DNA of 64,000 nucleotides from Nostoc commune NIES-4072 (GTDB lineage: Bacteria > Cyanobacteriota > Cyanobacteriia > Cyanobacteriales > Nostocaceae): contig NZ_BDUD01000001.1 in the NCBI RefSeq assembly GCF_003113895.1, positions 6,948,559-7,012,558 on the forward strand, read 5' to 3'. The notes beneath the pieces are model-generated. The model saw nothing but the letters and a program-made list of their open reading frames with translations, was not told the DNA's origin and did no database searches. Below, piece by piece: positions 1-17,768 of this stretch. Within the stretch, counting starts at the first letter, position 1, and every line of letters begins with the position of its first letter. The position numbers and the translations under genes were made by a program.

Positions 1-169
1 TGAAACCGTGCATAAGTTGACTATAAACCGTGCTTTAATTCCTTGATAAAAGCGTCAATCGCCTTTCCTGCCGTTGATTGCTTACCCACTTTAAGTTTAT
101 TCAAAGTGCGATCGCGGGTTAGGATTAACTCTTCATTGCTTAATTGCCCGGTAGCACTATTCTCGGATT

Positions 170-439
170 CTACCGGGCTTTCAATTTTCCCCGCAGTTCC
201 TCCAGTTGCGCCTCTAATTGCGATCGCACTTCAGCTAGGCTTGCTTCTACTTCTTGCTTAACCAATGATTTCATGTCTACAGGTGTAGACAATTTTCTAG
301 ATGTATCTGTAGACAGCCCTAGACATTCTATCATTCTCCTTTGAGCCGTCTGGTTTAATGTTTCACCCTCTATTTGCAATGCTTCTAATACTGCTACAGC
401 CTCATCAGGCAAGCGAAACGAAAATTGTTTGCTAACCAT
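170..439 (-). CDS. Small ribbon-helix-helix-like protein, possibly frameshifted
   Basis: 89-residue protein. Its N-terminus (QFSFRLPDEAVAVLEAL, then LNQTAQRRMIECLG) resembles ribbon-helix-helix or plasmid-type DNA-binding proteins of cyanobacteria. The C-terminal third is an Ala/Glu/Leu-rich, probably coiled-coil stretch. It ends at 170 in one frame, but the shifted frame stays open to a stop at 21-23 and reads like genuine protein (for example KLKVGKQSTAGKAIDAFIKEL). The native gene may therefore be longer and broken by a single-base change near 180-195. It lies in the element left of nifD. Function is unknown; DNA binding is inferred from the pattern only. Confidence 0.5.
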   Translation of the reverse strand: MVSKQFSFRLPDEAVAVLEALQIEGETLNQTAQRRMIECLGLSTDTSRKLSTPVDMKSLVKQEVEASLAEVRSQLEAQLEELRGKLKAR

Positions 440-1200
440 AACCCTGTCCTTGTCTACACTGCCTACAATATTAGATGGTTTCAGCTTCGCTGTCTACAGC
501 TATGTTGACATTGTATTCAAGGTTGTCGTATTCTTAGTGTAGACAGATGAAAACAGGAATTGACTTAGGTTGCAGCGAGTAAGTCGTAGCGTCGTTTCGC
601 TCCCCTAGTAACCACATGGGATGGATAAATCAGTAAACCAAAAAGTTTTTTAGAAGCAAAACCCAAGCAAACATTTCAGCCAAAGCCAGGGATATCACAA
701 AACAACGTTTTGTTGAGCATTTCAGACGATCACTCTAGTTATCTTTAAGCGATCGCTCTAACCCACCTTCCGCACCCTAACTGTCACAAAGGTGTTTTCA
801 CTGTTTTTTAGAATAAAACAAAGCTAGTTTATATACTTAATCTCCTTGTTTTAACTGAGATTAAAAATTATGTCAGCATAATTTTTAGCTCAAAACCTGT
901 CAAAAGTTAAGTGATTACCGATTGTGACACTCTGGGTGCGGAATGTGGGCTCTAAGATCCTTCTAAAACCAATGGTCAATACTCCTGATTAACGATGGCT
1001 GAAACCCTTATTATTACGTTGGTTTTCAAAAGTTTGTGGTTTACTGTAAATGATCATCTGGCTAAAAGAAGCCCGATCGCTTTTTACAACGACAAATAAG
1101 GTCAGCGCTTGAATGCGCCCCGGCAAGAGAGTCTTTCACCTCTCCCCCACCGGCACGACTTCCCCCTTACAAGTTCTCACGCCACTAAGGAGGCAATAGT
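440..1200. other. Intergenic stretch with one MITE
   Basis: No convincing gene. It holds the 188-base MITE at 762-949, two GCGATCGC-type sites, and a purine-rich ribosome-binding site (AAGGAGG) just before the gene at 1201. Confidence 0.6.
762..949. mobile_element. 188-bp MITE derived from the IS1634-type element at 34512-36716
   Basis: Inverted termini begin CCCACCTTCCGCACCC on the left and CCCACATTCCGCACCC on the right. The element is flanked by a perfect 6-base duplication, CTCTAA (756-761 and 950-955). The first 42 bases match the right end of the IS at 34512-36716 with three differences, including bases inside the terminal repeat. It has no coding capacity, so it must be mobilised in trans. 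Confidence 0.85.
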
Positions 1201-1491
1201 ATGTTAGCGTCAGACGCGCCCACTTTGGGCATTTTTCGTCAAGCGTCAAAGTTTTGGCGTTTGCGGATCAGTAAAGAATTCGACAAGCCCGAATATTACA
1301 TTGGTCAGACCGTGCTGCACAAGATGAAAGTGAGGCAGGGTGAAATTTTGCATCCGGTCACGGTAATAGGCTTGAGATGGTCTGGGCTTGATTGGATGTA
1401 CGCCGTCGAATTGCCAGAAGATCATCCACAGTTTCATCATGAGAATCATGGCTGGGATGAACTGGAAGGCTATTTGCTAGAGGCGATGTAA
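1201..1491 (+). CDS. Small unknown protein, possibly DUF1392-like
   Basis: 96 residues. The start is well supported by AAGGAGG eight bases upstream. The protein contains YYIGQTVLHKMKV followed by GLRWSGLDWMYAVELPED, a pattern resembling the small cyanobacterial DUF1392 family (a V..G..W....W.Y.VEL core). No membrane segment or catalytic motif is visible. It lies alone in the element left of nifD, with a bidirectional terminator about 270 bases downstream. Function unknown. Confidence 0.6.
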   Translation: MLASDAPTLGIFRQASKFWRLRISKEFDKPEYYIGQTVLHKMKVRQGEILHPVTVIGLRWSGLDWMYAVELPEDHPQFHHENHGWDELEGYLLEAM

Positions 1492-1501
1492 TTAAAATGC
1501 C

Positions 1502-1741
1502 TTGGCAGGGGCGATCGTCATTGAGGCGATCGCACTTCTACTTAGACTGTTACTTGAAGACTTTTTGAAAGATAAATATCCCAACATTTATCAAAGCGCG
1601 TGTGAAATTGTTGAGTTACGGCCAAAACGGTACTTACACATATCACTAGTTGATGAAGTTGCTTTATTTAGCTATTTCATCCTAGAAATTAATGATTGGG
1701 TAAAAGACAAAGGCAGCAGTGATTGCAGCCTTTCGAGGTAG
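1502..1741 (+). CDS. Possible small protein of unknown function
   Basis: 79 codons starting at TTG, 10 bases after the preceding gene. The N-terminus is hydrophobic (AIVIEAIALLLRLLLEDFL), followed by a plausible globular stretch (KYPNIYQSACEIVEL, then ILEINDWVKDKG). There is no ribosome-binding site of note and no recognised family. It may be a gene remnant or a chance reading frame. Confidence 0.28.
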   Translation: MAGAIVIEAIALLLRLLLEDFLKDKYPNIYQSACEIVELRPKRYLHISLVDEVALFSYFILEINDWVKDKGSSDCSLSR

Positions 1742-1761
1742 TGCGCGTGGACTACAAAAAA

Positions 1762-1795
1762 AACGACCTCCAGTCAACGACCGGGGGTCGTTTTT
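1762..1795. terminator. Bidirectional rho-independent terminator
   Basis: A 10-base stem (AACGACCTCC with GGGGGTCGTT, one G-U pair) encloses an 11-base loop. It is preceded by a run of A and followed by TTTTT, so it could work on both strands. It lies after the small genes at 1201-1741. Confidence 0.7.
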
Positions 1796-2237
1796 GTGAG
1801 CGATCGCTCACCGCTCGTTGCAACGCTTCCTAACTTCCAACTCCTGACTTCCGACTTCCACTGACTAGCTGGTGAAGTTGTAAGTTGAAGTCGGAAGTTA
1901 CCGCAACGTGCAGCAGCAAAACCAGCCGCCGCCGATTGCGTACAAAAACGTCGGGGAATCGCGGTAAAGAACTTCATACAAACCTTAAGGTTTAGCCATT
2001 GTTGAGCGGCGATCGCCCGTAGAACAATCGTCGCTACGGAGCCTTAACCCCTCCGTTCGTAGAACAGTCGCAACGTAAACAATGCTTCGGTATAGTATCC
2101 CGAAGTCAGGGGTGTACCCATATTTTGCAAAAATTAACTGGACTAAATTAGGTTATCCGTTAGCAAACTACTGGAGTTACTCTCTTCGACATTAACCCCA
2201 AAGAGAGGGACACATCACAGCAGGTCTGTAGCAATGC

Positions 2238-2297
2238 CACTTGCTCAAAAAATTATGTTAATAGGTTAACCCGTTAACAAAATGTTTTGAGCAAGTG
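2238..2297. repeat. 60-bp inverted repeat with 13-base arms
   Basis: Arms CACTTGCTCAAAA and TTTTGAGCAAGTG are perfectly complementary. Inside them, GTTAATAGGTTAAC and CCGTTAAC motifs add further pairing. No T-run follows, so a terminator is less likely than a hairpin or protein-binding site. Confidence 0.6.
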
Positions 2298-2397
2298 AAA
2301 CTCGGTCGAGGGTTAAGGCTCGACCGGGAGAGTTGGCGGTCAGTCTCTAAAAACAGCAGGAATTTCAAACCACGCTAAAACTTCTGGGAAATATCTA

Positions 2398-2522
2398 AGG
2401 GACTTCCAAATAAAAAAATATACAACTATTTATTGTGGGGTGGGCAACATGAGCGCCCATAGTCAAAGGCGGGCAAGATGCCCACCCCACAAGATTGGAT
2501 AATTTATTTCTTGGAAGTCCCT
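2398..2522. mobile_element. 125-bp MITE with AGGGACTTCC ends
   Basis: The ends are AGGGACTTCCA and its complement. Next to the ends lie AT-rich stretches, and in the middle is a GTGGGGTGGGC / GCCCACCCCAC hairpin. The right end, read inward, resembles the left end of the ISAzo13-type element at 63470, suggesting a non-autonomous relative. Confidence 0.75.
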
Positions 2523-3324
2523 AATATGTTCGAAAAACAAACCACGCCAATATTTCTTAGACAAGTTAACTTGTCGCTGGTTTAATTCTTCTAAAAATCA
2601 ACGGTTTCGCGTGTATTTCCCCCACTACTCTAAGCGTTGCTTAAAACTTGGTCGAATTGACTGGAGAAGTATACTTCTCCGGTTAGAAAAAATGGCTAAA
2701 AATCACTATTAGCAAGGACTTCAAAAAATAAGGGGAGGGTTTAACCCTTTCCGCTTAAAAAACACTAGCCGCACACTCATGCAGCTAAAAGTCGAGAGTG
2801 CAGCAACTCATTACTGCGTTGCATCCTGACGCAGACTGTACAGCAGTTCTCGCCAGCATCAAATTTTTGCAACGGTAGAGCGTGAGTGGCGCGAATTTTA
2901 CGACCGCACACAGTCAACCAAGTTTGCGATCGCGGATTTTCGTTATCCATTAAGTGCAGCACTCCGTTTTTGCTTATCTGCCTTCCCAATACTTCCATGC
3001 CAATACACTCGCGTTTTAGCCTAGTGTATAAACTTTGACAGATACCCTGCAAGCTGTTGCAAAAATTTGCTAGACAACCTATAGGTTATCCGCCAGCGAA
3101 TTTTGACTTATGCACCACTGTTGCATCTCTAGTTGAGAGTTGCTCGATTACTAATTCTGTGGGTATACAGCTAAAACTTCACACCCTTAAGCCACAATTT
3201 GCAAATCAAATTACCATTTTACTAGAGTTTTGGATGTTTAAATCGCAAGCTTTAAGACAAAAACAAGCCACGCGAAACGCAGACTTGCAAAACCATTGGT
3301 ACACAAGCGTTGTAGACTTTCAGC

Positions 3325-3799
3325 TACCGTATACCCTGGTTGGAATACAACTTCTTCGGCCCCACCAAGATTGCTGAATCTTTACGGGAAATCGCTTCCA
3401 AGTTTGACGAAACAATCCAAGCAAACGCTGAGAAAGTTATCGCCAAGTATCAGCCCACAATGGATGCGGTAGTTGCTAAGTACCGCCCCCGTTTAGAAGG
3501 TAAGACTGTTGCCATCATGGTTGGTGGTCTACGTCCTCGCCACGTTGTCCCAGCTTTCCAAGACTTGGGCATGAAGATGATTGGTACAGGTTATGAGTTC
3601 GCTCATAACGATGACTACAAACGTACCACTCACTACATCGAAAACGGCACCATCGTTTATGACGACGTTACCGCTTACGAATTCGAGGAATTTATCAAGG
3701 CGCTGAAGCCTGACCTAGTAGCTTCTGGTGTGAAAGAGAAGTACGTCTTCCAAAAGATGGGTCTACCTTTCCGTCAAATGCACTCTTGGGATTACTCCG
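3325..3799 (+). CDS. nifD: nifD, middle piece (nitrogenase MoFe protein alpha subunit)
   Basis: Encodes the NifD segment from [17 protein letters not shown] through [39 protein letters not shown] and [22 protein letters not shown]. NifD binds the FeMo-cofactor; the His codon in QMHSWDY (3781-3783) corresponds to the homocitrate-side cofactor ligand (His442 in Azotobacter numbering). The frame is interrupted right after it at the GGATTACTCCG repeat and resumes at 20219. The 5' part of the gene is also missing immediately upstream, replaced by another element. It is not a pseudogene: the sequence is intact up to both junctions, as expected of a gene rebuilt in heterocysts. Confidence 0.95.
3789..3799 (+). 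repeat. Left recombination repeat of the nifD element
   Basis: GGATTACTCCG within nifD codons for W-D-Y-S. It is identical to the right repeat at 20219-20229. Confidence 0.95.
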
Positions 3800-4118
3800 A
3801 ACCTAGCGATCATTCTTCAACATCATATAATGCAAGGTTTTTTAGCGGCGAGAGAAAAAAGCAGCCCATTTTTAGCCTAAATGCAAGTTGCAGGGTTATG
3901 TAGTAACAATCTGTTTTGATGCTTTAGACAGTATAACTCTATATGGAGTCTGGTTTTTATATTTTGCTTGCATTTTGCTTAAATAATAACTGTAAAATGA
4001 AAGACTATTTATAATGACGATTTTTTAGATTAAATGGTGCGTAATGTCTAAATTGAGCAGCAGATAACAAACCTCATCCGCTGATTATTATAACGCTACT
4101 TGAATTGGCAACTTTAAA
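3800..4118. other. Intergenic stretch at the left end of the nifD element
   Basis: AT-rich. The reading frame of nifD runs on into the element and stops at about 3903; that tail is not NifD. Nothing else recognised. Confidence 0.6.
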
Positions 4119-4646
4119 TTATAAATTGTTAAATTGCCGATCTAGAAAATTTATAAATAGTGTTGCTTGCTGATAAAGCTTATAAACTTCTTCCGCTGTC
4201 TTTTCGATAGTGCAATCTGCAAAGTTTTGATGCACTAACTTATTACGCTCATTGCCTAGCTCTAGAAATGACTTAATTGCAGAATCTAAATTAGTATCTT
4301 CTTTTACATCTTTTAATCTATTTTCTTTAAATGTCTTACCGAATAAAGAAAAAAATTTGTTAGCATTTCTTCCTTCCCAATCAAAATATGTATGATATTG
4401 TCTTTCGATCGCCTTCTGCTTAACTATTGAAACAATGCATTCATCATTCTGAGTTTTATACTCAATAAATGTTTGAACCATTCTACAAATCTCATGCTCA
4501 AAGTAGCTTGCTGCTGAGAGTAGTAAAGTTTTGGTAAAAACAGTATTAAATTGAACCATAAAAGATGGCTCATTTTTGTCCTCTAGGAATTTTAGAAGGT
4601 CTAAATTATCTTGATAAATTCGGTCAACAATACTTTGTTTTATCAT
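4119..4646 (-). CDS. HEPN-domain protein (RiboL-PSP-HEPN-like)
   Basis: 175 residues, all-helical in appearance. LLSAASYFEHEICRM near residues 42-57 and the late motif GNERNKLVHQNFAD (R-N-x-x-x-H) are typical of HEPN domains, whose R-x4-6-H motif is the RNase active site in many toxins and defence proteins. It follows the truncated DUF262 gene with a 4-base overlap, so the two form one transcription unit. DUF262 (ParB-like nuclease) genes are often paired with a HEPN gene, in putative defence or toxin-antitoxin modules. The gene looks intact, but its partner is not. Confidence 0.75.
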   Translation of the reverse strand: MIKQSIVDRIYQDNLDLLKFLEDKNEPSFMVQFNTVFTKTLLLSAASYFEHEICRMVQTFIEYKTQNDECIVSIVKQKAIERQYHTYFDWEGRNANKFFSLFGKTFKENRLKDVKEDTNLDSAIKSFLELGNERNKLVHQNFADCTIEKTAEEVYKLYQQATLFINFLDRQFNNL

Positions 4647-5581
4647 AAATCACAATTGTTTACGCAGAATGCCGCTTTTTGTAATCTTTTGTTGACATTT
4701 TCCTTACTAGTAGTTTGAGATTGTATGGCTTCTACAAACTCTATATCGCTTTTTAGTTCTTCGAGCTTTTCAGTATCTATCTTTCCTTCAACAAGCTGAC
4801 GTGTTTCAAAAAAATGTCCACATTGAGCGACAAATACCGCTTCAAAGATAGAAATATTAAACTTATTAGTTGTCTTTCGATAAAATGCTTTTTCTGGCAA
4901 TTCTGAGCAAGCTTCTAAAAAAGAGTGGAATAGCTTTTCAAGGTAATCTATTTGTTCAGTTCTCAATTTTTTACAGTTTTTAGAAAAGCTATTGAGAAAC
5001 TTAACCATAGACGACTGATATTCTTGGCGCTCAACTAACATTGCAAATCCTCTTAAGAGAATTTCAATGTCTTTCATATTCAGATCCGGTTCGTAAACTC
5101 CAATTATTCGTCGCCAGGCAGGTAAAGTATTGAGCCGATACAACATATTGTAGAAATCAGAATAATATAGGCTTGTCCTAATCTCTTGAGGTTTTAAATT
5201 TATACCGCCAGAGTTTAGGCGATTAAAAATTTCATATATACAAGAATCATCTTCTTCTGGAAAATTCTGCTTGATTATGATATTTCTTATAGTTCGCAAA
5301 TCGAATGCAATCTTATATTCATCTAGGGTTGAGTAGTTGATTTTATTTAGCTTATTGGGATGATTTGGTAAATTTGAGGGCAATTGCAAGTTGAATTTAG
5401 TGAAATAGGCATCATCTCCCAGAATTTCATCTGGAATCTTGCCATTTTCCTCAAAAATTCGCCTCAAAATAGTTCTCTTTTCGTCTTTTGGAAAGCGTTG
5501 TTCAATGAAATAGTAGAGAGACATTAAGCGTTGTTGCCCATCTATTACCAAAAATTTGTTTCTGAGGATTTGATGAGTTAG
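4643..5581 (-). pseudogene. DUF262 (GmrS-like, ParB-fold) gene missing its 5' end
   Basis: The open frame reads ILRNKFLVIDGQQRLMSLYYF, containing the hallmark DGQQR of DUF262 proteins, then RFPKDEKRTI and IFNRLNSGGINLKPQEIR, both typical of the family. An in-frame stop lies at 5582-5584. No methionine start precedes NKFLVIDGQQR, so the usual first 70-100 residues (including the PPYQR-type motif) are absent. Translation from an internal TTG at 5551 is possible but would lack part of the nuclease fold. It overlaps the downstream HEPN gene by 4 bases. Likely a decayed defence module in the nifD element. Confidence 0.8.
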
Positions 5582-6001
5582 TCATTCTAAATTACCTAAG
5601 ATACAAAGTGCCAATTGCTTTACTCCCAATGTCGAAACTATACTAACCGTTAACTTCATCGTAACTAGGTGCTGAACATTAACACATAACCTTTAACCAT
5701 TGACCTCATTCAGAAAGGAAGCTGATTAACTACATATTATACATATTTTCCGTATAACAATCCTTACTTAGAGTACTCGTAAATTTCGTGAATAAAATTC
5801 GCTCAAGCAAAGCCTAAGTAAATCAGCAAACTTCTACCTCTAATCTTTTGGCATTGTTGGTTACTCATAACTGTGATCGCCCCAACTTGCCAACACGCCA
5901 CTGTATATTTAGAGATTGTGTGTAAAATGCACGAGAAGTAAACCGTTGTAGCGATCGCCCCAGTTCGACAACACGCCACTATATATTTATACTGGGTGAA
6001 G
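5582..6001. repeat. Intergenic stretch with a 40-base direct repeat
   Basis: No gene. Two imperfect copies of a motif, GATCGCCCCA then CAACACGCCACT then TATATTTA, lie at about 5875-5914 and 5953-5990, 78 bases apart. Confidence 0.6.
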
Positions 6002-6235
6002 TTAAGCGATCGCCTCTAACTCAGGAATGTGTTCAGTATTATTGCTTTCAAACAGTCGGTCAATTTCTTCCTCAACAATATCCCATCCATCTCGATCCTC
6101 AGCTCCATTCTGCAAATAATCAATCCATATTGGCTCTACAGGAAGAAATTTGATTGCCATCTGAGCATTAACCAAGGTTCCAATATGAGTTTTACCCGCT
6201 CCTTTTGGGCCAACTAATATGAATAGCGTTTTCAT
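6002..6235 (-). CDS. Short P-loop protein, probably a kinase fragment
   Basis: 77 residues from ATG at 6235. It begins MKTLFILVGPKGAGKTHIG, a clear Walker A motif (GPKGAGKT), and continues FLPVEPIWIDYLQ, followed by an acidic tail. Complete P-loop kinases of this type are 170 residues or more, so this protein probably lacks its C-terminal half. The tail runs into a GCGATCGC-rich stretch and stops. It may still be expressed. The neighbour at 6275 is 40 bases upstream on the same strand. Confidence 0.6.
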   Translation of the reverse strand: MKTLFILVGPKGAGKTHIGTLVNAQMAIKFLPVEPIWIDYLQNGAEDRDGWDIVEEEIDRLFESNNTEHIPELEAIA

Positions 6236-6274
6236 TATATTTGTCAAGGAAGTTTAAGCAATTATTTTTGGGCT

Positions 6275-6853
6275 TCAGTCTGGAAAAGCTAAACCAGTCA
6301 TCGGGTCACGAATATACAACCCTAATGTGAGACTACGTATTGCTTCATCCCAAACGGGTATTAATTGTTCTGCTTGATCTGCCCAATAATCAAATGTAAT
6401 CAAGCACTGAATATTCGACCCCAAAGCAATGCAAGTCCGCGAAAAAGCTTCCCGTGGTTCTTCCTGAGTATCAATGAACTTCATCTCTGTCCAGACAATT
6501 TTAGCGGTTTGGCGCTTGACGGTAATAATTTCTCCCTTAGCAATGATGTTGCGGCTGTCGTTTTCCAAGACTTTCTTTAAGGTAGATTTTAGCGGAAACT
6601 TGCTCCAATCATTAGGTGGCAGAGGATTGAAAGATACTTCCAGACAGCAATCATCGTTGGGGGGTTTTTTATCGAGGAACTTGAAGGATTTTTCTTGTGG
6701 CTCAAAAACCCAATCCTGGGGAACATTGAAGCGAACAGCTCCGCGATTCGCAACAAATATTTTATAGCCTGATGGAGATTCCCAATGATGGTCAGGCTTT
6801 AGTTCAAGGGTTTCTTTAATCCACTGGAGATTGCTTTTTTTACGCTTTGCCAT
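6275..6853 (-). CDS. Conserved unknown protein
   Basis: 192 residues from ATG at 6853. The lysine-rich start (MAKRKKSNLQWIKETLEL) is followed by HHWESPSGYKIFVANRGAVRFNVPQDW and a central beta-rich region that could form a PsbP/DUF1795-like fold. No signal peptide, membrane segment or catalytic motif is visible. It lies upstream of the short P-loop gene on the same strand, so they may be co-transcribed. I do not recognise a function. Confidence 0.65.
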   Translation of the reverse strand: MAKRKKSNLQWIKETLELKPDHHWESPSGYKIFVANRGAVRFNVPQDWVFEPQEKSFKFLDKKPPNDDCCLEVSFNPLPPNDWSKFPLKSTLKKVLENDSRNIIAKGEIITVKRQTAKIVWTEMKFIDTQEEPREAFSRTCIALGSNIQCLITFDYWADQAEQLIPVWDEAIRSLTLGLYIRDPMTGLAFPD

Positions 6854-7221
6854 AGTGTTTGTGCCAATCTGCTGAAGAGTGCGTAGGCGTTAGCTTGTCT
6901 AAGATACCGCCTAATTTGGGTCGTAAACAATCATCAACTTTGTTAATGTTATCAAATTGCTAGTATTTAGTAGCGCTCTTATATTACTCTTACCAAATAA
7001 AAATTAAAAATCTTGATTTTTATTCATCGGCTTTATGAATCTATAGGTAAGTTAGGGAGCCACAGTAAACTCAACAAGCTAAGGCTCTTCTTCAGCTTAG
7101 GACTGGCGTTGAAGGTTTGGGCAACCCCAAGAAGCGGAGGATTTCACTCAGGATATTTTTTTGAACCAGCAAGCGATCGCTAAGAACCTATTTAGCAATT
7201 TTAACGGTAAAACTCAACCTT
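6854..7221. other. Intergenic stretch between divergent genes
   Basis: About 370 bases separating the minus-strand gene at 6275 from the plus-strand TraX-like gene. AT-rich, promoters expected for both; no repeat or RNA recognised. Confidence 0.5.
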
Positions 7222-7872
7222 ATGATTAAATTTTCAGCTTTCAGCATTAAAATCTTAGCCGCAGTGTTCATGGTTATGGATCATGTGTGCTATTTGTTAA
7301 TGCCAGACTTTTTAATATTGCACTTTATTGGGCGATTGAGCTTTCCCCTCTTTGCATGGCTTCTAGCTAAAGGCGAAAAACACACCCAAAATGTGTACCG
7401 CTATGGAGGCAGGTTATTAATTACAGCAATTATATCTCAGCCAATCTATACTGTTGTTTTCCAAAAGTTCTCATTTAATATTCTCTTCACGCTTCTTCTT
7501 GGACTTGTGATGTTGCGCTTAATAAAGCTTTGTCCGCAATTATGGCAGCAATTAATAATTATTGGATTGTGTGCAGCAGTTTCTGAGGTCTTGGGCTTTG
7601 AGTATGGAGGATATGGGATTGGAGTAATTTTATTGATGTCTTTAATAGATAAACTCAACCCCAGAGTATGGTTGCTCTACTGGTGCATCTTACACTTGAT
7701 TATAGTAATTTTATCTATAAATTATATATTTCAAATTTGGGCAATTTTTGCAGGATTCATTGTTTTTCAATTTAATGGTAGACAAGGTTCACGGGCTAGA
7801 TGGTTTTATCTATTCTACCCGGCTCACTTAATAATTTTAGGTATAATTAATTATTTAATCCAGTCCAGGTAG
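7222..7872 (+). CDS. TraX-family membrane protein
   Basis: 216 residues, strongly hydrophobic, with about seven predicted membrane segments. The N-terminus (IKILAAVFMVMDHVCYLL, then HFIGRLSFPLFAWLLAKG) and the C-terminal YLFYPAHLIILGIINYL are characteristic of the TraX family, named for the F-pilin acetylase. Bacterial chromosomal members probably acetylate unknown substrates. The length is slightly below the usual 220-250 and looks complete. The GRLSFPLFAW motif with arginine and the conserved MDH are present. It stands alone in the nifD element; the actual substrate is unknown. Confidence 0.85.
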   Translation: MIKFSAFSIKILAAVFMVMDHVCYLLMPDFLILHFIGRLSFPLFAWLLAKGEKHTQNVYRYGGRLLITAIISQPIYTVVFQKFSFNILFTLLLGLVMLRLIKLCPQLWQQLIIIGLCAAVSEVLGFEYGGYGIGVILLMSLIDKLNPRVWLLYWCILHLIIVILSINYIFQIWAIFAGFIVFQFNGRQGSRARWFYLFYPAHLIILGIINYLIQSR

Positions 7873-7940
7873 TATTTACGATTTGATAAGCGTATCAACA
7901 ATGGGTTAAGCCTACACTCAATTTATTAATATTCTCAATT

Positions 7941-8606
7941 TTATTCCTTTGGACAACTATCAGACACACCATAAACATAAGTAGCTTTGTATTCTTTTGC
8001 CTCATTTTTACGAGCATATCCAAGTTTTATTTGTTCGTTAGTTCTGACAAATACTCCTTCTACCCATTTTTTTGACTGGGTGTTTGCCCTGCGAACAGAT
8101 AAGTGATTTATGGGAATAGCGTCATCTAATTCAATTGAAACAATTCTGCTTCCATTCCATCGGGTAACTTCGGGTGGAGCAAATAGATAGATAAAGTTAG
8201 TATTGGAGCCTGATGGTTGTACAACGATGCGGTCAATCACTTTAGCTGGTCTAATAATTTTTCGCCTGAATCTATCAGACAATTCAAATTCTGCAACATC
8301 GGGAAAATTACCTCCAATCATTAAAACCTGCTTGATCAAATTTTGGCTGGGATCAAGCATGACAGCACTTAACTCAATTTGGGTAATTTCACTATCGGCA
8401 GAGATTTGAAACCGTCCCCTTGGAATACCATCCATACTCAAGGCTCGACCATCTTCAGTTTTGTAAGGGAGTTTAATTTGAGGCAAGCTTAAAGTAACTA
8501 TCTGGTTTTCACATTTTGCTGCCGTAAGAAAGTACTTACTGGCTACAACGACAGCAATTGTTACAATTGCCGCAGCAATAATCACAAGTGGACTTTTCCG
8601 CATCAT
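7941..8606 (-). CDS. Membrane-anchored unknown protein
   Basis: 221 residues. Residues 6-28 (LVIIAAAIVTIAVVVASKYFL) form an N-terminal membrane anchor, so the remainder is probably outside the cytoplasm. The body is beta-rich with no known motif; two cysteines occur (in KCENQ and DSCPKE). It is convergent with the TraX-like gene. Nothing recognised by family. Confidence 0.6.
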   Translation of the reverse strand: MMRKSPLVIIAAAIVTIAVVVASKYFLTAAKCENQIVTLSLPQIKLPYKTEDGRALSMDGIPRGRFQISADSEITQIELSAVMLDPSQNLIKQVLMIGGNFPDVAEFELSDRFRRKIIRPAKVIDRIVVQPSGSNTNFIYLFAPPEVTRWNGSRIVSIELDDAIPINHLSVRRANTQSKKWVEGVFVRTNEQIKLGYARKNEAKEYKATYVYGVSDSCPKE

Positions 8607-9507
8607 TTTTTATAATCTTAATGCCAATAAAGACTATTTTATACAGCTTTTTCTATACCTCAACAGAGGATTTACGGTTATTAGGATGGCAATAGTGATG
8701 TTTTGCTTGTGTTGGATATTTGGAATGTTTGAGATCATAGGTGCGTTACGACAGCGCACCCTACTTGAAACGTGCGATCATATTTGAAGCTAAAATAATC
8801 AACTCATGTTATGCGAAAAGATTAAGCCAGAACTATAGGAATCGTATTTGATTTTTGAAATTATCTATGTGGGCGGGGAGTAGGGAGTAGGGAATTAGGC
8901 TTTTGAACTGTACCGAGTTTTTTCAGAAATCAATTATTAGTCCTATATCCCCTAACTAAAGGGCGATCGCAAAAAAAAGAGCGATCGCAAAAAATTTGTA
9001 ACTTGCATTTTACTAATAAACGAACCGATGGTTTATATTAAACAGACTTCACTTTATTTATTTAGCCTAACCTACGGCTAAACATAAATCTGCTGTAACC
9101 CATACAGTAATTAAAAAAACTAATTTAAGCAATTACCAAATTCTATTTTTCTTAACGAAAAAGCTCAAAAACTAGATATATTTATCTACAAAGATAGATG
9201 CTATACAGTTATATATCTTTCTTGAGAAGGATATATTTTTTAAAAAATTACTTTTATTAGACTATAAATTGAAAATAAATAGTAGATATACATTTCATTC
9301 AATGATATTCATCAGATAAATCTCTTATAAATCTTAGTCTTTTGTTAATGTTTACCAGCTATGATGCCATAGTAGTGAATAATAATTCGGATTTACATAT
9401 CTAGGGATAATTGTGTCATCCAGGAAAAATGCCCTAGATTTATCCCTCAAACTGCAAAATGTAGCCGAAAACAACTACTGAATAGGTAAATCTTTGAGGT
9501 AACAAGC
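8607..9507. other. 900-base AT-rich region upstream of the carotenoid protein gene
   Basis: Contains the MITE-like repeat at 8834-8947, two GCGATCGC sites at about 8963-8988, and a very AT-rich stretch from 9100 to 9400. The last part should hold the promoter of the gene at 9508, with GAGG about 8 bases before the start codon. No gene seen. Confidence 0.55.
8834..8947. mobile_element. Divergent 114-bp member of the TATAGGA MITE family
   Basis: Ends TATAGGAATC and its near-complement AGTCCTATA. Inner motifs TTTGATTTTTGAA and CAGAAATCAA match the termini of the three longer copies at 13031, 33243 and 47488, but the interior is different. Confidence 0.65.
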
Positions 9508-10467
9508 ATGAGTTATACTATCGAATCTGCACGGAATATTTTTTCTAGCACGCAAGTGGCAGATGCTGTTCCAGCCACTACGGCAATGTTTGCTAAACTC
9601 AACGTTGACGATCAATTGGCATTTCTCTGGTATGCCTATGCTGAACTAGGTCGTACAATTACTCCAGCTGCTCCCGGAAAAGCAAATCTCCAATTAATGG
9701 AAGGTATATTCAACGATATTAAGCAGATGTCTCATGAACAACAAACGCAGTTAATGAGAGATTTAGCAAGTAATGCAGATACTCCTATCAGCCGTTCTTA
9801 TGCATACTTTGGTGTCAATGCTAAATTGGGATTCTGGTGGCAGTTAGGAGAGTGGATGAAACAGGGTATAGTCGCTCCTATGCCAGCTGGCTATCAAATG
9901 TCACCTCAAGTTAAAGCAGTGCTAGAAGCTGTTCAGAAAATCGATCAGAGTCAGCAAATTACTGTACTACGCAATACTGTAGTAAATATGGGGTTTGATC
10001 CGTCTCTGGCTGATAATAAACAGGCAGAAGTCATCAACTTTAAGTTCCCACGTTCATCTCTAAGTCCCCAATTTACTATTGAGGGAGTTACAGAGCCAAC
10101 AGTGCTGAAATACATTGAAGCTATGAATGCAGATAACTTTGAAGCTGCTGTTGCTTTATTTGCTAATAATGGTGCGCTGCAACCACCTTTCCAAAAACCA
10201 ATTGTTGGCCGAGAAGCTATCACTGCTTACCTAAGAGATGAGGGACAAGGGTTAGTCATGAAGCCAACCAAAGGTGTTTCGGAAACTATAGAAGATGGTT
10301 ATACCCAGCATAAAGTTACTGGTACAGTCGAAACTCCTTGGTTTGGGGGTAATGTTGGGATGAACATTGCTTGGCGATTTTTACTCGATCCTCAAGGTCA
10401 AATTTACTTTGTGGCTATTGACTTACTTGCTTCTCCCAAAGAACTACTTAACCTAACTCGCAAGTAA
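9508..10467 (+). CDS. Orange carotenoid protein
   Basis: 319 residues. OCP is a cytosolic, blue-light-activated protein that binds a keto-carotenoid and quenches phycobilisome excitation. The N-terminal helical domain (1-165) keeps the carotenoid-contacting residues at the usual positions: W41, Y44, W110 and R155. The C-terminal NTF2-like domain (from about 190) has LKY near 201-203 and MNIAW with W289, matching the tyrosine and tryptophan that hydrogen-bond the carotenoid in OCP1. The interdomain linker is short and differs from OCP1, so another OCP clade (OCP2 or OCPX) is possible. No FRP or ketolase gene is nearby. Its place inside the nifD element is unusual. Confidence 0.93.
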   Translation: MSYTIESARNIFSSTQVADAVPATTAMFAKLNVDDQLAFLWYAYAELGRTITPAAPGKANLQLMEGIFNDIKQMSHEQQTQLMRDLASNADTPISRSYAYFGVNAKLGFWWQLGEWMKQGIVAPMPAGYQMSPQVKAVLEAVQKIDQSQQITVLRNTVVNMGFDPSLADNKQAEVINFKFPRSSLSPQFTIEGVTEPTVLKYIEAMNADNFEAAVALFANNGALQPPFQKPIVGREAITAYLRDEGQGLVMKPTKGVSETIEDGYTQHKVTGTVETPWFGGNVGMNIAWRFLLDPQGQIYFVAIDLLASPKELLNLTRK

Positions 10468-10848
10468 AATTACTTTGTCTTATATACAAGGTAATTGCGC
10501 TTGTTGAAGATGATGTTTTAAAAGATTTTTTGCTCTCATAGTTAGCAAATTATTGCATATTAGCACATAGCTAAAATATGAATTTAGCGTTGTAATAACC
10601 CTAGCAGAAGTGCAAAATTATAACTTTCGGGGCTTTTAAAACATCCTCTAAGCGCCATAACGCTCATTAATTAAAATCTCAATAAATGCTCGGTTCTAAG
10701 GGAACCGAGCTTCAGTCAAATGTAGGCAAACTAGCGTAAATTGGCTGTTCACTCAAACCAACGTCAACTACCTTTCTCAGTGTTGCTGATCCAAAAAAGC
10801 GTTATGCTGCCGCGTTATTCTCTATCAATTTTGACTCAAAACAACAAC
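10468..10848. other. Intergenic stretch between convergent genes
   Basis: Contains the hairpin at 10688-10710; otherwise AT-rich with nothing recognised. Confidence 0.5.
10688..10710. terminator. Possible terminator hairpin
   Basis: A 9-base perfect stem, GCTCGGTTC with GAACCGAGC, around a 5-base loop. It lies between the convergent genes at 9508 and 10849 but lacks a T-run, so it may act as a factor-dependent terminator or simply a hairpin. Confidence 0.4.
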
Positions 10849-11842
10849 TTATCGTAAAAAGTTTATTGCATCTGGCTGCTTTAGATGATCAACTTCCCCT
10901 ATTTTCTGTATCCAGTCTCGTCTAAGTTGGGTACGTTCCATAGTTGTGCCAAATTCATCAATCCAAACATCTGAAGCAACTTCCTGTAAGAAAATCTGCC
11001 ATTCAGTACGTACACCTTCAGCACGTAATACCCGATCAACAAATTCTTCAACAATAGCGAAGCCTGCTTGACTTGGTTCTTTTAAGAGAGTCTTAAGTTC
11101 TTTTTCACAGTTGTTAACTGCTTCAGCTTGAGCTTTAGAGAGATTATTTACAATTTTCTCAGCAGGGGGAGATGTATGTATTCTTCCTGTCTTTATATCT
11201 ATCCATTTGTCTAGAAAACCTACTTCAAGGCTGTAGGTTGTTCTATTGGGAGTTAAAACATCTAGATGCCTTCTAATTCTATGTTGAACCAGTCCACGAT
11301 ATTGAAGGTCGAAGGTTGCAAGGGTCTGAAAACCAAGTTTTAAACCAGCTAAATTTTCTGGAATCTTTTCTGCTAACTCTTTTAAGAATTCACTACCATT
11401 ACCTTCCGCAATCTTTTCCAATTTGCCATGAGTCTTTAAAACTCCTACTACACGAGACTTTGCTTGCTCTAAAGATTCCTTTAATGCAATATCCAAAGAA
11501 AGAAACTGTTTTGAAAGATGAGTACGTATTTCATGCAAAGACTCAGCATAAGCAGTCATGTATGCCCCATTAGCATAACACTTTTGCTGAATCTCCTCCA
11601 ATTCAGGAATTCCCGTTTCTGAGCGACAAGCCGCGATCGCAGAATCAACGGCGGACTTAAAGTTTTTATCATCGGTATCTCGTTCAGAGATCATTGATGA
11701 AGTTAGACGTTCAAGTTCTCTTGTCAAATCATTCCAAAACTTTCCAAAAAGTTCAAGGAATTTTGGAAACCAATCATCTCTTGATGCTTGCCTCCAAGCA
11801 TCCTTAGCTTTTTCTAACTCAACAGCAACAGTTCTTTACTGA
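10849..11842 (-). pseudogene. C-terminal part of a large helical protein, 5' end lost
   Basis: The open frame encodes about 330 residues of charged, helical, coiled-coil-like sequence (for example LSKAQAEAVNNCEKELKTLL, SLDIALKESLEQAKSR). It is open upstream of the first possible start (TTG at 11727), with FLELFGKFWNDL in frame, until a TAA near 11845, and no ATG precedes it. The composition resembles the helical region of dynamin-like or other large GTPases, but no GTP-binding motif is present. I therefore cannot assign a function. Probably a truncated gene in the nifD element. Confidence 0.5.
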
Positions 11843-12004
11843 TTGTCCTTCACTAAACTTGATTTGAGAAATATTGAGTAGTTCTATAGCTGAGTATTCC
11901 CAAGAACACACAGATTGCAACAGTAGCCCTACGAAGTTTTTCCCAGCAACAATTCAATCGTGGCCTCAAGCTACATTAAAGACTTATGCTTATTTAGCGT
12001 TCCC

Positions 12005-12345
12005 CTTTAGTTAGCAAAATGAGCTTTTACTTTCTCAAAATGCCTTATGACTTATTCATTTAGGTATTTGTCACACACAAAATAAGCTTTTACTTTCTCA
12101 AAATGACTTATGAATTATTCATTTTGGCGTTTTCTACAAGTAAAATAAACTTTTACTTAATCAAAATGCTTTATGACTTATTTATTTGGGTGTTTTCTGC
12201 AAGTAAAATAAGCTTTTACTTTCTCATTATGGTGTTTTCCGCAAGTAAAAGAAGCTCTTACTTTCTCCAACCCCAGTTTACTTTCTTATTTCAGTAGTTC
12301 GCGCATTCATGACAAAGATCGCTATGTAGCAAAAACTATTGCAGA
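12005..12345. repeat. Degenerate tandem repeat, family shared with 50500-50745
   Basis: Four to five diverged units of about 65-75 bases, each with a core such as AAGCTTTTACTTTCTCAAAA, then TTATGACTTATTCATTT and a TGTTTTC.GCAAGTAAAA piece. The block closes with CCCCAGTTTACTTTCTTATT, a TCAGTAGTTCGCGCATTCAT motif and CTATGTAGCAAAA. A second block with the same closing motifs lies at 50500-50745. The stretch from 11843 to 12430 has no convincing gene. Confidence 0.7.
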
Positions 12346-12430
12346 TTTGCCGGAATTCTCTCAAGCTGATCTATAGGTCAGTTATTTAAGGTAAAGAATA
12401 TTAACCATACTAGATTCCAAGGTGTAGATT

Positions 12431-12856
12431 ATGGCTCGTAGAAAAAGAACTTCCGTAGTGTTAGAAAAAGCAGTGCGCCGTGCCGCTAGCATAAACTCAA
12501 TTGATCCGAGATTAGATTTAGGCAATGGACTTACCTTACCTGCTTTTTCAACCCTGATCGAGAAGATGCGATCTCAAGAAAATGCTTACAATAGTGCCCT
12601 TTCTAGCTTGGATAAGTTGTATCAGGAAATGCTGGAAACAGAAAGCGAGTTGGGAGATATGACAGAATACATGCTGATGGCAGTTGGGACTCGATATGGT
12701 AAAAACAGTGTAGAGTATGGCATGGCAGGAGGAGTTCCTAAAAGCCAGCGTCGTAAGGGACTGCGAGGCCAGTCGCAAACTCCTAACGCGGAGCAACCGT
12801 CATTTGTTGCCAGTCTGGAAGGCAAGAATGGAAAGAAAACAGTAGCGACAAGTTAA
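12431..12856 (+). CDS. Conserved unknown protein, plasmid/element type
   Basis: 141 residues with a basic N-terminus (MARRKRTSVVLEKAVRRA). A helical core, LIEKMRSQENAYNSALSSLDKLYQEML, is followed by GTRYGKNSVEYGMAGGVPKSQRRKG and a disordered tail. The pattern matches small unknown proteins frequent in cyanobacterial genomes. No domain with known activity. Intact and preceded by a long non-coding repeat. Confidence 0.65.
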   Translation: MARRKRTSVVLEKAVRRAASINSIDPRLDLGNGLTLPAFSTLIEKMRSQENAYNSALSSLDKLYQEMLETESELGDMTEYMLMAVGTRYGKNSVEYGMAGGVPKSQRRKGLRGQSQTPNAEQPSFVASLEGKNGKKTVATS

Positions 12857-13030
12857 GATGTGCGCTAGTAATCAAAATTTTGTCAAACCCAAATAATTGC
12901 GTAGGCGCAGCGCGTCGTAGACATCGCTGTTTTACCAAAATATTTATCCATTAGTAGCCGCGCAGTCTAACGCACCCGACAGCTTGACAAAAAAATTAAA
13001 CAAAGGTGAGTATGTGAGCATCTTGGGAAC

Positions 13031-13184
13031 TATAGGATTACTATTTGATTTTTGAACGAAATTAAGTATTGTAGAGTGTGTTAGAACGGAGTTCGTAACG
13101 CACTATGAACACGAGTTTGATGCCGTACTCTCCGTGCTAACACATCCTACGTATATTTTCTCCAAATCAAACCGGATTCCTATA
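13031..13184. mobile_element. 154-bp MITE, copy A of the TATAGGA family
   Basis: Ends TATAGGATTAC and its near-complement GGATTCCTATA. The interior GTAGAGTGTGTTAGAACGGA, then GTTCGTAACGCACTATGA and CTAACACATCCTAC, is almost identical to copy B (33243-33395) and close to copy C (47488-47640). The surrounding 12857-13249 contains no gene. Confidence 0.8.
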
Positions 13185-13249
13185 TAGAAGCAAATCAGAT
13201 TAAACTCAACTTCTAGTTTCCAATGAAAACTCACTATTCTAGTAGCGGA

Positions 13250-13577
13250 ATTTAAAAGCGTCGATATTCATGAGGGCATCGATAGTACCTTGATGATTTT
13301 GCAACACCGCCTCAAAGCTAAACCAGAACAACCTGAAATTGAGGTGATCAAAGACTATAGCAATGTACCTCTAGTAGAATGCTATGCCGGACAACTCAAT
13401 CAGGTGTTTATGAATATTTTAGTTAATGCGATTGATGCCTTAGAAGAAAGCAATGCCTTGCGTACTTATCAGGAGATTAACGACAATCCTAGTCAAATTA
13501 TAATTCGCACATCGGTAGTTAATTCAACCTGGGTAGAAGTAGCGATCGCTGGCTACAATACACCACTTTCTAAGTAA
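13250..13577 (+). pseudogene. Histidine-kinase fragment (ATPase N-box region)
   Basis: The open sequence reads VDIHEGIDSTLMILQHRLK, then QLNQVFMNILVNAIDALEE. This is the region between the phospho-His helix and the N-box of a sensor histidine kinase. The H-box, G-boxes and sensor domains are missing on both sides; the frame ends soon after VEVAIAGYN, where DNGPGI would be expected. A remnant, not a functional kinase. Confidence 0.8.
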
Positions 13578-13578
13578 T

Positions 13579-13668
13579 CTAGCTTGACAAATGATTTTTA
13601 AACAGTTCTAGAACATGTTGCCAAGCATCAGGAGCAGCTTCAGGATTGTAACTTGGGTGTTGTTCCAT
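13579..13668 (-). pseudogene. C-terminal scrap of a dienelactone-hydrolase-like gene
   Basis: 29 codons reading MEQHPSYNPEAAPDAWQHVL and ELFKNHL before a stop. The YNPEAA.DAW pattern is the usual C-terminus of dienelactone hydrolase family proteins. No upstream part is present. Confidence 0.55.
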
Positions 13669-13939
13669 AAGTGTTAATTTCGATGTTTGTTGTTTCTAGC
13701 ATCTTTGTTTCGGCTGATTTTATACCAACTCATTTATTTTGACTGGTTTTCGACACAGACGGGCACAAACATCAGAAGTATTGCTCTCCGACTTTATAGC
13801 TATGAGCAGATCAAAGAAATTTCTAACTTTTGAATAGATACCATCTCAAACTTCTGGAAGATTCCAAGGGTTTTTGATTTGTGCGACCTTACATAAAGTA
13901 AGCATAAAGACTCAAAATTAATAACCAGAAGAAAAAACA

Positions 13940-14479
13940 ATGCCAGATCAAAGTTTTAGAACAGATATTCCAGAAGTTGACACAACAGAGATTGAAGATA
14001 CTCGAACTGCGATCGCAGACGAACATCACTCCTTTCTTGAAAAGGTCATGGTTAGAAGCGGATTTGCAGATTTGTATGACGCAAGAGACTTTACCGAAGT
14101 TGTGTATCGCGTGATGCGCGACGTAATGACCACAGAAGCCAGCGATCGCGTCGAAGCAGAACTGCATACAGAAGCTATACCTACTGATGAGAAAGCACTC
14201 CAGTTTGAAGTGTCCGATCTCTGGAAAGACACCAATCCAATTGTGGGATTTTTGAGCCGGGTTCGTCCACCCTGGAAAGGCCCAGGTATCTTCAATATCG
14301 ATTCCGATCGCTTCTTGTTCCGAGTTGCTAATGAAAGCGGAATGCCGCGATCAGTTGAGCGAGAACAAGCGGTTAAAGCAGTGTTTTCTGCCACCAAAGA
14401 CGAACTTTCCGAAGAGCGGATTCAGGAAATTGCTAGCTGGCTACCTGATTATGTACGTCAGCTTTGGGAGCAAGCTTAA
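13940..14479 (+). CDS. DUF2267-family protein
   Basis: 179 residues, two helical repeats. HHSFLEKVMVRSGFADLYDA plus DFTEVVYRVMRDVM, and later QAVKAVFSATKDELSEERIQ plus EIASWLPDYVRQLWEQA, fit DUF2267. The (L)P.(Y/F)V..LW motif in the last 15 residues is typical. DUF2267 proteins are small, soluble, and of unknown role. The gene is intact, followed by a GTTTGCG...CGCAAAC hairpin with T-run at about 14507-14537 that probably terminates it. Confidence 0.8.
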   Translation: MPDQSFRTDIPEVDTTEIEDTRTAIADEHHSFLEKVMVRSGFADLYDARDFTEVVYRVMRDVMTTEASDRVEAELHTEAIPTDEKALQFEVSDLWKDTNPIVGFLSRVRPPWKGPGIFNIDSDRFLFRVANESGMPRSVEREQAVKAVFSATKDELSEERIQEIASWLPDYVRQLWEQA

Positions 14480-14544
14480 TTAGAAGTATAGAAAAGTCAA
14501 GTCTGTTTGCGAGTAGCGATCGCAAACAGGCTTTTTAAATAGGT

Positions 14545-14883
14545 TTAGCCTACAGCAAACTCTGTATACTGCCTTACATGAGGTGCATGATATGCTATCA
14601 CAATATCTTGCTTAGGCACTCCCTCGCTCACAAGTTGATCTGCGATCGCATCCTCCGTTCCGTCATGCTGCACCCAAATCTTCCCATCCTTGATATCTAT
14701 ATGCAGCACACAGCCATAAATCCGGGTACTACTATCCTTCCATCCCACATGCACAAGCTGATAGTGGTCTTTTGTAGTATCAAAAATGGTTTGACTTTCT
14801 ACTGGATCGCTCTTAGAACGCAACTTTGCTCGCGCCGTCAATAATTTCTGAATTAGTTCACGATACAAATTTAGCTTATCCAT
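14545..14883 (-). CDS. xisI: XisI-family protein
   Basis: 112 residues. LNLYRELIQKLL at the start, then IFDTTKDHYQLVHVGW, IYGCVLHIDIKDGKIWVQHD and the ending GVPKQDIVIAYHAPHVRQYT are characteristic of the XisI family. It was first described as a factor controlling fdxN-element excision in Anabaena. Homologues are widespread and may instead form endonuclease-like or toxin-antitoxin-like pairs with XisH. It overlaps xisH by 13 bases, so the two are translated together. There is no fdxN gene here; the pair sits in the nifD element. Confidence 0.92.
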   Translation of the reverse strand: MDKLNLYRELIQKLLTARAKLRSKSDPVESQTIFDTTKDHYQLVHVGWKDSSTRIYGCVLHIDIKDGKIWVQHDGTEDAIADQLVSEGVPKQDIVIAYHAPHVRQYTEFAVG

Positions 14884-15287
14884 TCTGCAATCTCCTGTTT
14901 TTCTGTGTCATACACCAAAAGGGGAATTTTGTTACGGACAATGACCGTTTGAATAAATGGATATCTGAAAAATCGCTTATAAACGTCAAGCGGAACAGCC
15001 AAATACAACCGCCGATCTGGATCGTCATCTTCCAAAGCAATACGGTAGTTAATAAATTGTCCAATTGCAGTATGAAACTCAGAAATTGTTGAGGGTGCTA
15101 AAAACGTTTTGATTTCAACTGCAATCTTTTCCTCATCCTTTGTCGCTGCTAGCAACAGTTCCGCACCCAAGTCGATGTAAAAATCAACAAACCCTAAATC
15201 AATGTGGTACGGATCGTGAGTAATTACCCACCCTTGCTTCTCAAGAGCAGTTCTGACTAATTCATGAAACCTATCTCTTGCAGACAT
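14871..15287 (-). CDS. xisH: XisH-family protein
   Basis: 138 residues, ARDRFHELVRTALEKQGW at the start. DLGAELLLAA then EEKIAVEIKTFLAPS gives the D-x(n)-E-x-K pattern of PD-(D/E)XK nuclease folds. It ends YRIALEDDDPDRRLYLAVP and PLLVYDTEKQEIAEWI. XisH is needed with XisF and XisI for fdxN-element rearrangement in Anabaena PCC 7120. Here it is the first gene of an xisH-xisI pair within the nifD element, so it may affect that element or serve another role. Confidence 0.92.
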   Translation of the reverse strand: MSARDRFHELVRTALEKQGWVITHDPYHIDLGFVDFYIDLGAELLLAATKDEEKIAVEIKTFLAPSTISEFHTAIGQFINYRIALEDDDPDRRLYLAVPLDVYKRFFRYPFIQTVIVRNKIPLLVYDTEKQEIAEWIS

Positions 15288-15423
15288 CGTAGACAGCTAA
15301 CCAGAAAGATAAAGTCTTTTGTAGAAAAAAGAATATATATACCCCAGGATTATATTACCTCACAAGTAAATCTGTGACAAAATAATATTGTTGTTTTATA
15401 GCCAGTGCGATCGCTTACGACCT

Positions 15424-15993
15424 ATGATTTCTACCATCTCGCGCCGCTACAGCTTAGATGAATATCGCGCGATCGAAGAAAAAGCCGAAGGACGGAGCGA
15501 ATATCGAGATGGAGAAATTGTACCCATGCCTGGAGGAACGCTCAAACACAGCCGCATCGGTCGGAACATTCTAACCTATTTTAGTACAGTGCTGCGCGAT
15601 ACTCAATTCGAGCCAATTAACAGCGATTTACGGCTGTGGATTCCTGAACATCGACGCGGAGTCTACCCAGATGTAATGGTTTTTGACGGTGAACCGCAAC
15701 TAAATGGCGATCGCTTAGATGAAGTCTTAAATCCGACGCTAATTGTTGAAGTCCTATCTCCTTCCACCGCAGATTACGACCGACTCAGTAAATTTCGGAT
15801 GTATCGCTCAATTGAGAGTTTTAGCGAATATTTATTAGTAGAACAGAATGAACCTTTCGTGGAACGCTACAGTAAACAAGCCAAAGGTTGGTTGCTCAGT
15901 GATTTTAGCGGTCTAGAGCTATCTATTTCTTTGGATTCGCTTAGTATTGAATTGCCGATGACAGAAATTTATCGCGGCGTTGCTTTTGAGTAA
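15424..15993 (+). CDS. Uma2-family (DUF820) nuclease-like protein
   Basis: 189 residues from ATG at 15424 (MISTISRRYSLDEYRAIEEK). The Uma2 signature is clear: YRDGEIVPMPGGTLKHSRIG, then YPDVMVFDGEP and PTLIVEVLSPSTADYDRLSK. This family has a PD-(D/E)XK restriction-endonuclease fold with D in PDV and E-V in VEVLSPST as active-site elements. It is hugely expanded in cyanobacteria and of uncertain role. A longer frame begins at 15388, but the ATG at 15424 fits the family N-terminus better. Confidence 0.85.
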   Translation: MISTISRRYSLDEYRAIEEKAEGRSEYRDGEIVPMPGGTLKHSRIGRNILTYFSTVLRDTQFEPINSDLRLWIPEHRRGVYPDVMVFDGEPQLNGDRLDEVLNPTLIVEVLSPSTADYDRLSKFRMYRSIESFSEYLLVEQNEPFVERYSKQAKGWLLSDFSGLELSISLDSLSIELPMTEIYRGVAFE

Positions 15994-16081
15994 AGTAACT
16001 CTGGCTTTTTGCGACAACGCACGCTAAGTAAGGGATGCGTACTAAACAGAGATTTATCCTGTAATTACTTTTTAGATAAAT

Positions 16082-16417
16082 TCATGCTACGCCATACTGC
16101 GTATATTGACGCAGGTAAGATGGCTGTAATCCCAAAACAATATCTTCTTTAGATACTCCCATGTCAGTCAAATCTTCAGCAATTTGGATATCGGTCATAT
16201 TATGCTGAATCCATATCTTTTCATTTTTGATATCGAGATGTATCACACAATTATAAATTCGGTCATATCCATCCCAACCAATCTCTAGAATCTGGTAATG
16301 ATCTCGCGTCGTATCGAATATCAATTGGATTTCAACATCTTGCTCTGAAGGTTGGTAACTGCCATACTTCGTTAGTAAATTTTGAATATATTCACGATAC
16401 TGGTCTAGCTTTGCCAT
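16082..16417 (-). CDS. xisI: XisI-family protein, without an xisH neighbour
   Basis: 111 residues, paralogous to the XisI at 14545: LDQYREYIQNLLTKYGSY, IFDTTRDHYQILEIGWDGYD, IHLDIKNEKIWIQHN and GVSKEDIVLGLQPSYLRQYT. No xisH adjoins it; just downstream of its start is a degenerate IS5-type transposase. The insertion may have removed the xisH partner, which would normally lie on the upstream (right) side at about 16418 and beyond. The gene itself looks intact. Confidence 0.9.
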   Translation of the reverse strand: MAKLDQYREYIQNLLTKYGSYQPSEQDVEIQLIFDTTRDHYQILEIGWDGYDRIYNCVIHLDIKNEKIWIQHNMTDIQIAEDLTDMGVSKEDIVLGLQPSYLRQYTQYGVA

Positions 16418-16484
16418 TAGACATCTCCAAAATAGTATATTTTGTGGTAAAAAAACATCATGAGAAGTTTTTTAACACGAAAAT

Positions 16485-17725: not shown

Positions 17726-17768
17726 TCACATTATATTGCTGCGCGATCGCCCCGTGGTCGATTAGCAT

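Follow-up and report, generated by a model that had tools for sequence, protein, structure and literature searches.

The nifD gene of Nostoc commune NIES-4072 is interrupted, and the locus raises the question of how many elements divide it, and whether each of them could be removed to restore the gene. The DNA studied (the window, 64,000 nucleotides) comprises bases 6,948,559-7,012,558 of contig C1 (7.1 Mb), in a genome of 8.2 Mb and 11 contigs. A first-pass annotation of the window had described a middle piece of nifD at 3325-3799, with a junction of known type on its right and an abrupt loss of NifD similarity on its left. The piece is real, and only its start has to be moved, to 3329-3799 with both repeats included. 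The right junction is of the known type, as GGATTACTCCG at 3789 recurs at 20219 with the 3' end of nifD next to it, and the break on the left is a precise junction, at which GTATACCCTG at 3329-3338 recurs 5,215 bp leftward on the same strand. On the same contig but beyond the left edge of the window, the 5' piece had been out of view. The pieces and the elements between them are listed below; positions prefixed L009 are those of locus L009, which reaches left of the window, and all others are window positions.

L009:1281-2182, same strand and same contig as the middle piece: 5' piece of nifD, ending 1.9 kb left of the window
L009:2173-2182: left copy of GTATACCCTG, the direct repeat that closes the nifD 5' piece
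L009:2173-7387 (the right 3.3 kb being window 1-3328): element 1, the nifD-895 element, 5,215 bp as the repeat-to-repeat distance
L009:2294-3700, in the nifD direction: tyrosine recombinase gene of element 1 (468 aa), starting 111 bp inside the left repeat
3329-3338, plus strand: right copy of GTATACCCTG, at the start of the nifD middle piece
3329-3799, plus strand: nifD middle piece, made up of 460 coding bp and the second repeat
3789-3799, plus strand: left copy of GGATTACTCCG, the direct repeat that closes the middle piece
3789-20218: element 2, the nifD-1355 element, 16,430 bp
18689-19990, minus strand: tyrosine recombinase gene of element 2, at the far end and in the opposite direction, its true start possibly further upstream
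20219-20229, plus strand: right copy of GGATTACTCCG, followed by the 3' end of nifD
20219-20378, plus strand: 3' piece of nifD, stop codon included

Fusion of the three pieces at the repeats gives a NifD of 503 codons (503 aa) with no internal stop. The repeats start at nt 893 and nt 1353 of the rejoined gene, 16 codons past Cys282 and 2 codons past His449, respectively, the cofactor-binding residues. Both sites are uninterrupted in all 24 relatives with an intact nifD that were examined, drawn from 30 loci; in the other six loci the NifD match stops near the 1355 site and the 895 site reads through. An exact 10-bp match at both ends of a split gene, together with an unbroken gene in 24/24 intact relatives, is not a matter of chance. 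Extension leftward, which the first-pass annotation had proposed, reaches the 5' part of nifD, whose last bases are the matching repeat GTATACCCTG, and the recombinase gene to be looked for nearby is found just inside the left end of element 1. The possibility of a functional nifD elsewhere had also been raised. A search of the genome for the nitrogenase component family returned seven places, one being the NifD 5' part and another the middle piece; three just downstream in the nif cluster are presumably NifK, NifE and NifN, and two distant ones we assume to be chlorophyll-reductase subunits, so that there is no second NifD among the seven matches. Read from the sequence, nifD is in three pieces, separated by two recombinase-bearing elements, and the earlier proposal to this effect is borne out by the pieces, the exact repeats, the recombinase genes and the 503-aa frame.

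The pieces have retained the character of a coding sequence. Against 13 relatives, of the 24 intact ones at hand, omega ranges from 0.006 to 0.122 for the 5' piece, from 0 to 0.075 for the middle piece and from 0 to 0.120 for the 3' piece. These values indicate that all three are under strong purifying selection and kept as a working protein, though a break of very recent date would not have altered pairwise omega yet.

The recombinase of element 1 scores 22.2 bits against the Pfam phage integrases, under the cut-off of 27.1, and its one NCBIfam match (24.8 bits) is far under the cut-off of 220; PHROGs classifies it as an integrase (4.5e-14). Arg286, Lys310, Tyr378, Arg381, His404 and Tyr413 are invariant in 12/12 aligned rows, one of which is the element 2 recombinase, and correspond to the catalytic set expected of a tyrosine recombinase (R286, K310, Y378-x-x-R381, H404 and the nucleophile Y413). 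No match was found among 50,697 phage records at E 1e-5, and six peptide patterns revealed no relative in viral contigs; a phage or viral origin of the enzyme is rejected on these two grounds. Distant relatives (24-31% identity) are carried by three plasmids, among them a 17-kb Microcystis plasmid (NZ_CP046059.1:8547-9533, 31%), which fits a small-plasmid ancestry without demonstrating it. Enzymes with 53-54% identity to the element 1 recombinase are also encoded away from nifD pieces, at G003:C1:7241787-7243130, G114:C56:67252-68601 and G104:C40:20408-21757.

The rest of element 1 is small in content, and its cargo is partly common to other nifD-895 elements:

170-439, minus strand: 89-aa protein with a ribbon-helix-helix look by eye and no Pfam, NCBIfam or PHROG match
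1201-1491, plus strand: 96-aa protein of no known family
1502-1741 (L009:5561-5800), plus strand: 79-aa open reading frame of no known family, with similar sequence in other 895 elements

Relatives of the 89-aa protein occur in 9/21 named loci at 39-71% identity, one of them a mere 32-residue match, and those of the 96-aa protein in 8/21 at 68-91%. From the core to the first codon of the recombinase gene (L009:2183-2293) the sequence is strongly conserved, and both arms of an inverted repeat in it, ATTTAGTCC...GGACTAAAT, are present in 21/31 genomes; the repeat is a possible control or arm site.

Element 2 carries GGATTACTCCG and a recombinase at the far end in opposite direction, an arrangement which is that of xisA in Anabaena PCC 7120. 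Over 413 residues its recombinase shares 49% identity with the element 1 enzyme. At 9508-10467 element 2 carries an orange carotenoid protein gene of full length (Carot_N 1.1e-66, and NTF2); among the six Carot_N places in the genome, this is one of the two whose open frame is long (348 and 325 aa). Excision of element 2 would strip this gene from heterocyst chromosomes. A pair of XisH/XisI genes and a second XisI are also found in it, at 14545-15287 and 16082-16417, names that come from excision of the fdxN element. Further along the window hupL is split as well (39239-44715), with CACAGCAGTTATATGG at 40324 and 44205. This repeat is that of the Anabaena hupL element, and has a chance expectation of 0.04 matches. 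A third recombinase of the same family lies at 40456-41940, so that three near-full-length members stand within 44 kb. The hupL interruption is a probable third excisable element in the window.

How far the arrangement at the left junction extends was seen from 217 genomes of the family, in 216 of which the NifD query has a match at E 1e-8, paralogues counted. A close relative of the element 1 recombinase (68-100% identity) is present in 33 genomes, the present one included, and the next group, at 57% identity and below, is well separated. In all 33 genomes with this type of recombinase, termed type A, the left junction falls at the identical nifD codon, and the recombinase gene opens the element and is read in the nifD direction. 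The 1355 site is also broken in 30 of the 32 type-A genomes judged (G151 being outside the count), and is not broken in G072 and G197. Six further genomes (G061, G184, G186, G191, G038 and G187) are broken at the same codons and have recombinases 43-57% identical to that of element 1, at the right end and in the opposite direction. At least 39/217 genomes (33 + 6) are interrupted at the nifD-895 site; the numbers of interrupted sites are minimum values, since the piece-by-piece survey was confined to 51/217 genomes picked for a weak best NifD match. A scan of named genomes gave 21 loci, in Nostoc, Desmonostoc, Cylindrospermum, Trichormus, Anabaena, Dolichospermum and Sphaerospermopsis. The nifD-895 elements range in size from 1.8 kb, with little beyond the recombinase (two Dolichospermum loci), to ∼75 kb (G004, from coordinates).

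Other breaks were observed in nifD of the family: near codon 158 in G190, near codon 236 in G027, G028 and G029, and near codon 263 in G014, G031, G077, G173, G186 and G187, the gene being in five pieces in G186 and G187. Two part-length matches of 33-40% identity (query ∼39-214 and 215-493) in G014, G031, G038, G084, G184, G187 and G188 suggest a split nifE in these seven genomes.

The repeats of the type-A genomes allow the point of strand exchange to be narrowed. Left and right copies were compared base by base in 31 of the 33 genomes, omitting G054, in which the right junction was unrecognised, and G151, whose right junction was not retrieved. The two copies are identical in 31/31 over a continuous 7-bp block, TWCCYTG, which in the present genome is as follows:

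3332-3338, plus strand: TACCCTG, the putative strand-exchange (overlap) region, within Ile-Pro-Trp codons

The right edge of the block is sharp, the next base agreeing in 1/31, and its left edge is soft, with agreement of 23/31, 29/31 and 13/31 outward. Lone columns at +11 and +14 to the right also agree in 31/31, owing to a fixed A on both sides. Two wobble bases in the block are unconstrained by the protein code; at the first, 20 genomes have A and 11 have T, at the second, 30 have C and 1 has T, and the left and right copies agree at both in 31/31. On the nifD tree (31 rows, without G014 and G151, 30 scored) the first wobble base has changed 8 times per copy, and 7/7 independent pairs (starred branches) are concordant (sign test p 0.016). 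On the xis tree (32 rows, without G151, 31 with both copies scored) there are 6 changes, and 5/5 pairs are concordant with a p of 0.0625, short of 0.05 with few pairs. A tyrosine recombinase requires a matched strand-exchange region; left/right identity over the 7-bp block despite variation at the wobble bases thus points to the block as the strand-exchange core. The matched cores suggest that nifD-895 elements are, or recently were, functional.

The 1355 site was used as a control in 26 genomes. Its block TACTCCG agrees in 26/26 at six of seven positions and in 25/26 at the other (G167 differs), and columns +1, +12 and +14 also agree in 26/26 as fixed letters; the control is silent on matched change because the left copy is invariant in the block. 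Kinship of the two cores, TACCCTG and TACTCCG, was considered and set aside; they stand in opposite orientation relative to the recombinase-proximal side, so that their likeness, judged by eye, is treated as chance. A palindromic core, GGTATACC, as the source of the two element orientations at the 895 site was likewise discarded, being broken by genomes with GGTATTCC.

We hold it very probable that nifD carries two independent developmentally excised heterocyst-type elements, at the nifD-895 and nifD-1355 sites. In vegetative cells nifD would be dead, in three pieces. During heterocyst development the tyrosine recombinase of each element would recombine its own two direct repeats, a pairing to which position and co-occurrence point, and circles of 5,215 and 16,430 bp would be released to leave a scarless 503-codon nifD, the occurrence and the timing of the excision both being predicted ones. 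The crossover of element 1 would most likely fall inside TACCCTG, within the Ile-Pro-Trp codons, and the predicted sequence of the rejoined nifD after loss of element 1 is GGTATACCCTGGTTGG. In Nostoc sp. N6 excision of nifD and fdxN elements has been confirmed by RNA-seq, in a passage that leaves the nifD site unstated (PMC5987646).

Excision in the present strain is deduced from sequence, which leaves room for a dead insertion, that is, a mobile element that broke nifD with loss of nitrogen fixation. We regard this as very unlikely, as all three pieces keep an open frame and bear the mark of purifying selection (which a recent break would not yet disturb visibly), the recombinase retains the expected residues, and the left and right cores match exactly, as they do in each of the 31 genomes compared. 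Alternatively, element 1 might have no functional recombinase and depend for its removal on the related enzyme of the hupL element or of element 2; the enzymes are homologous (49% identity between elements 1 and 2), and three near-full-length members lie within 44 kb. This too is highly improbable, since element 1 has a complete recombinase gene of its own, the 895 element occurs in G072 and G197 with no 1355 element, and the recombinase type stays with the site across 33 genomes. That an assembly join or a rearrangement accounts for the left break, as might have been supposed when one side of the break was in view and the 5' piece was outside the window, has next to no chance of being right, with the 5' piece 5.2 kb off on the same 7.1-Mb contig and strand, an exact repeat, and an identical left junction in 32 other assemblies.

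The comparison of near relatives bears on the history of the 895 site. One case is G155, which is 98.2% identical to the present genome in the nifD 5' piece, 95.7% in nifH, 96.9% in the nifD middle piece and 93.6% in the element 2 recombinase, and only 76.4% in the element 1 recombinase; the corresponding values of G144 are 97.1% for the nifD 5' piece and 94.5% for the element 1 recombinase. On the xis tree the G155 recombinase groups with those of G007, G054, G055, G050 and G051. Forcing it into the Nostoc group is rejected (p-AU 4e-7), as is forcing G155 nifD into the other group (p-AU 7e-6), in tests with an xis tree of 31 rows (without G014 and G151); these values are weakened by the groups having been chosen after the tree was seen, and the identity gap is independent of the groups. 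Furthermore, the site is empty in five genomes that stand at much the same distance in the nifD 5' piece (97.4-98.2%), namely G110 (98.2%) and, at 97.4-97.8%, G142, G122, G146 and G153. Near relatives with an empty site, an element of the present type or one of another lineage imply that the 895 site turns over.

A broader reading, to which we give slightly less than even credence, is that nifD-895 is a living integration site, with loss and re-acquisition across genera, at which both 7-bp cores vary in step, at the sole positions where the NifD code permits change. If true, it would call for repeated re-integration, or for recombination in cells that leave offspring, beyond one-way excision in terminal heterocysts. 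Whether elements have been kept since entering a lineage, or lost and re-introduced, is left open by Hilton, Meeks and Zehr (2016; PMC4874684), and G155 and its relatives bear on this question as a clear example of a single site that has turned over. The 7-bp block is in addition a base-level prediction of the crossover, which can be checked by a plasmid test. A literature search, with most subscription papers outside its reach, returned no paper on a strand-exchange block or on element replacement at nifD-895.

The two elements of the present genome are members of known variants. The nifD section of Hilton, Meeks and Zehr (2016; PMC4874684) describes four variants, including 1355 (±2), which is the commonest, and 895 (±1), and reports that a gene may hold more than one element, the highest number being the four of Rivularia nifD. 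The repeat of element 1 starts at nt 893, within ±10 bp of 895 when counted along the present gene, and element 2 has its direct repeats, GGATTACTCCG, at nt 1353, within 1355 ±2; the 2-nt offset common to both sites (893/895 and 1353/1355) we take to be a difference in numbering. The first-pass annotation had called the left site a less common insertion point. It is rarer than 1355 in that survey, yet it is the published nifD-895 site and, as seen above, widely interrupted in the family.

Six strains with a nifD-895 element are listed in the survey. In Anabaena cylindrica PCC 7122, Anabaena PCC 7108, Cylindrospermum stagnale PCC 7417 and Microchaete PCC 7126, four of the six, the recombinase gene opens the element and points the same way as nifD (PMC4874684). 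Element 1 is like these in gene, site and placement of the recombinase; it differs from the examples as published there in host and cargo, with nothing marking a separate variant, and the 21 named loci include none of the four strains. The elements of Rivularia PCC 7116 and Calothrix PCC 7103 share the nifD-895 site and differ in that the recombinase gene sits at the far end and reads against nifD (PMC4874684), a layout also found in G061, G184, G186, G191, G038 and G187. Element 2 is like the nifD-1355 (xisA) element in its site (PMC4874684), and here measures 16.4 kb; its cargo, which may differ from that of other 1355 elements, includes the orange carotenoid protein gene. Outside cyanobacteria, the SP-beta prophage in spsM of Bacillus subtilis is alike in being a mobile element whose removal during differentiation restores a gene (PMC4191935); it is a prophage of a sporulating bacterium, and its likeness to element 1 is one of mode of action. 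Both insertion points having already been published, the locus is a good fresh example of a known arrangement, and not another kind of system.
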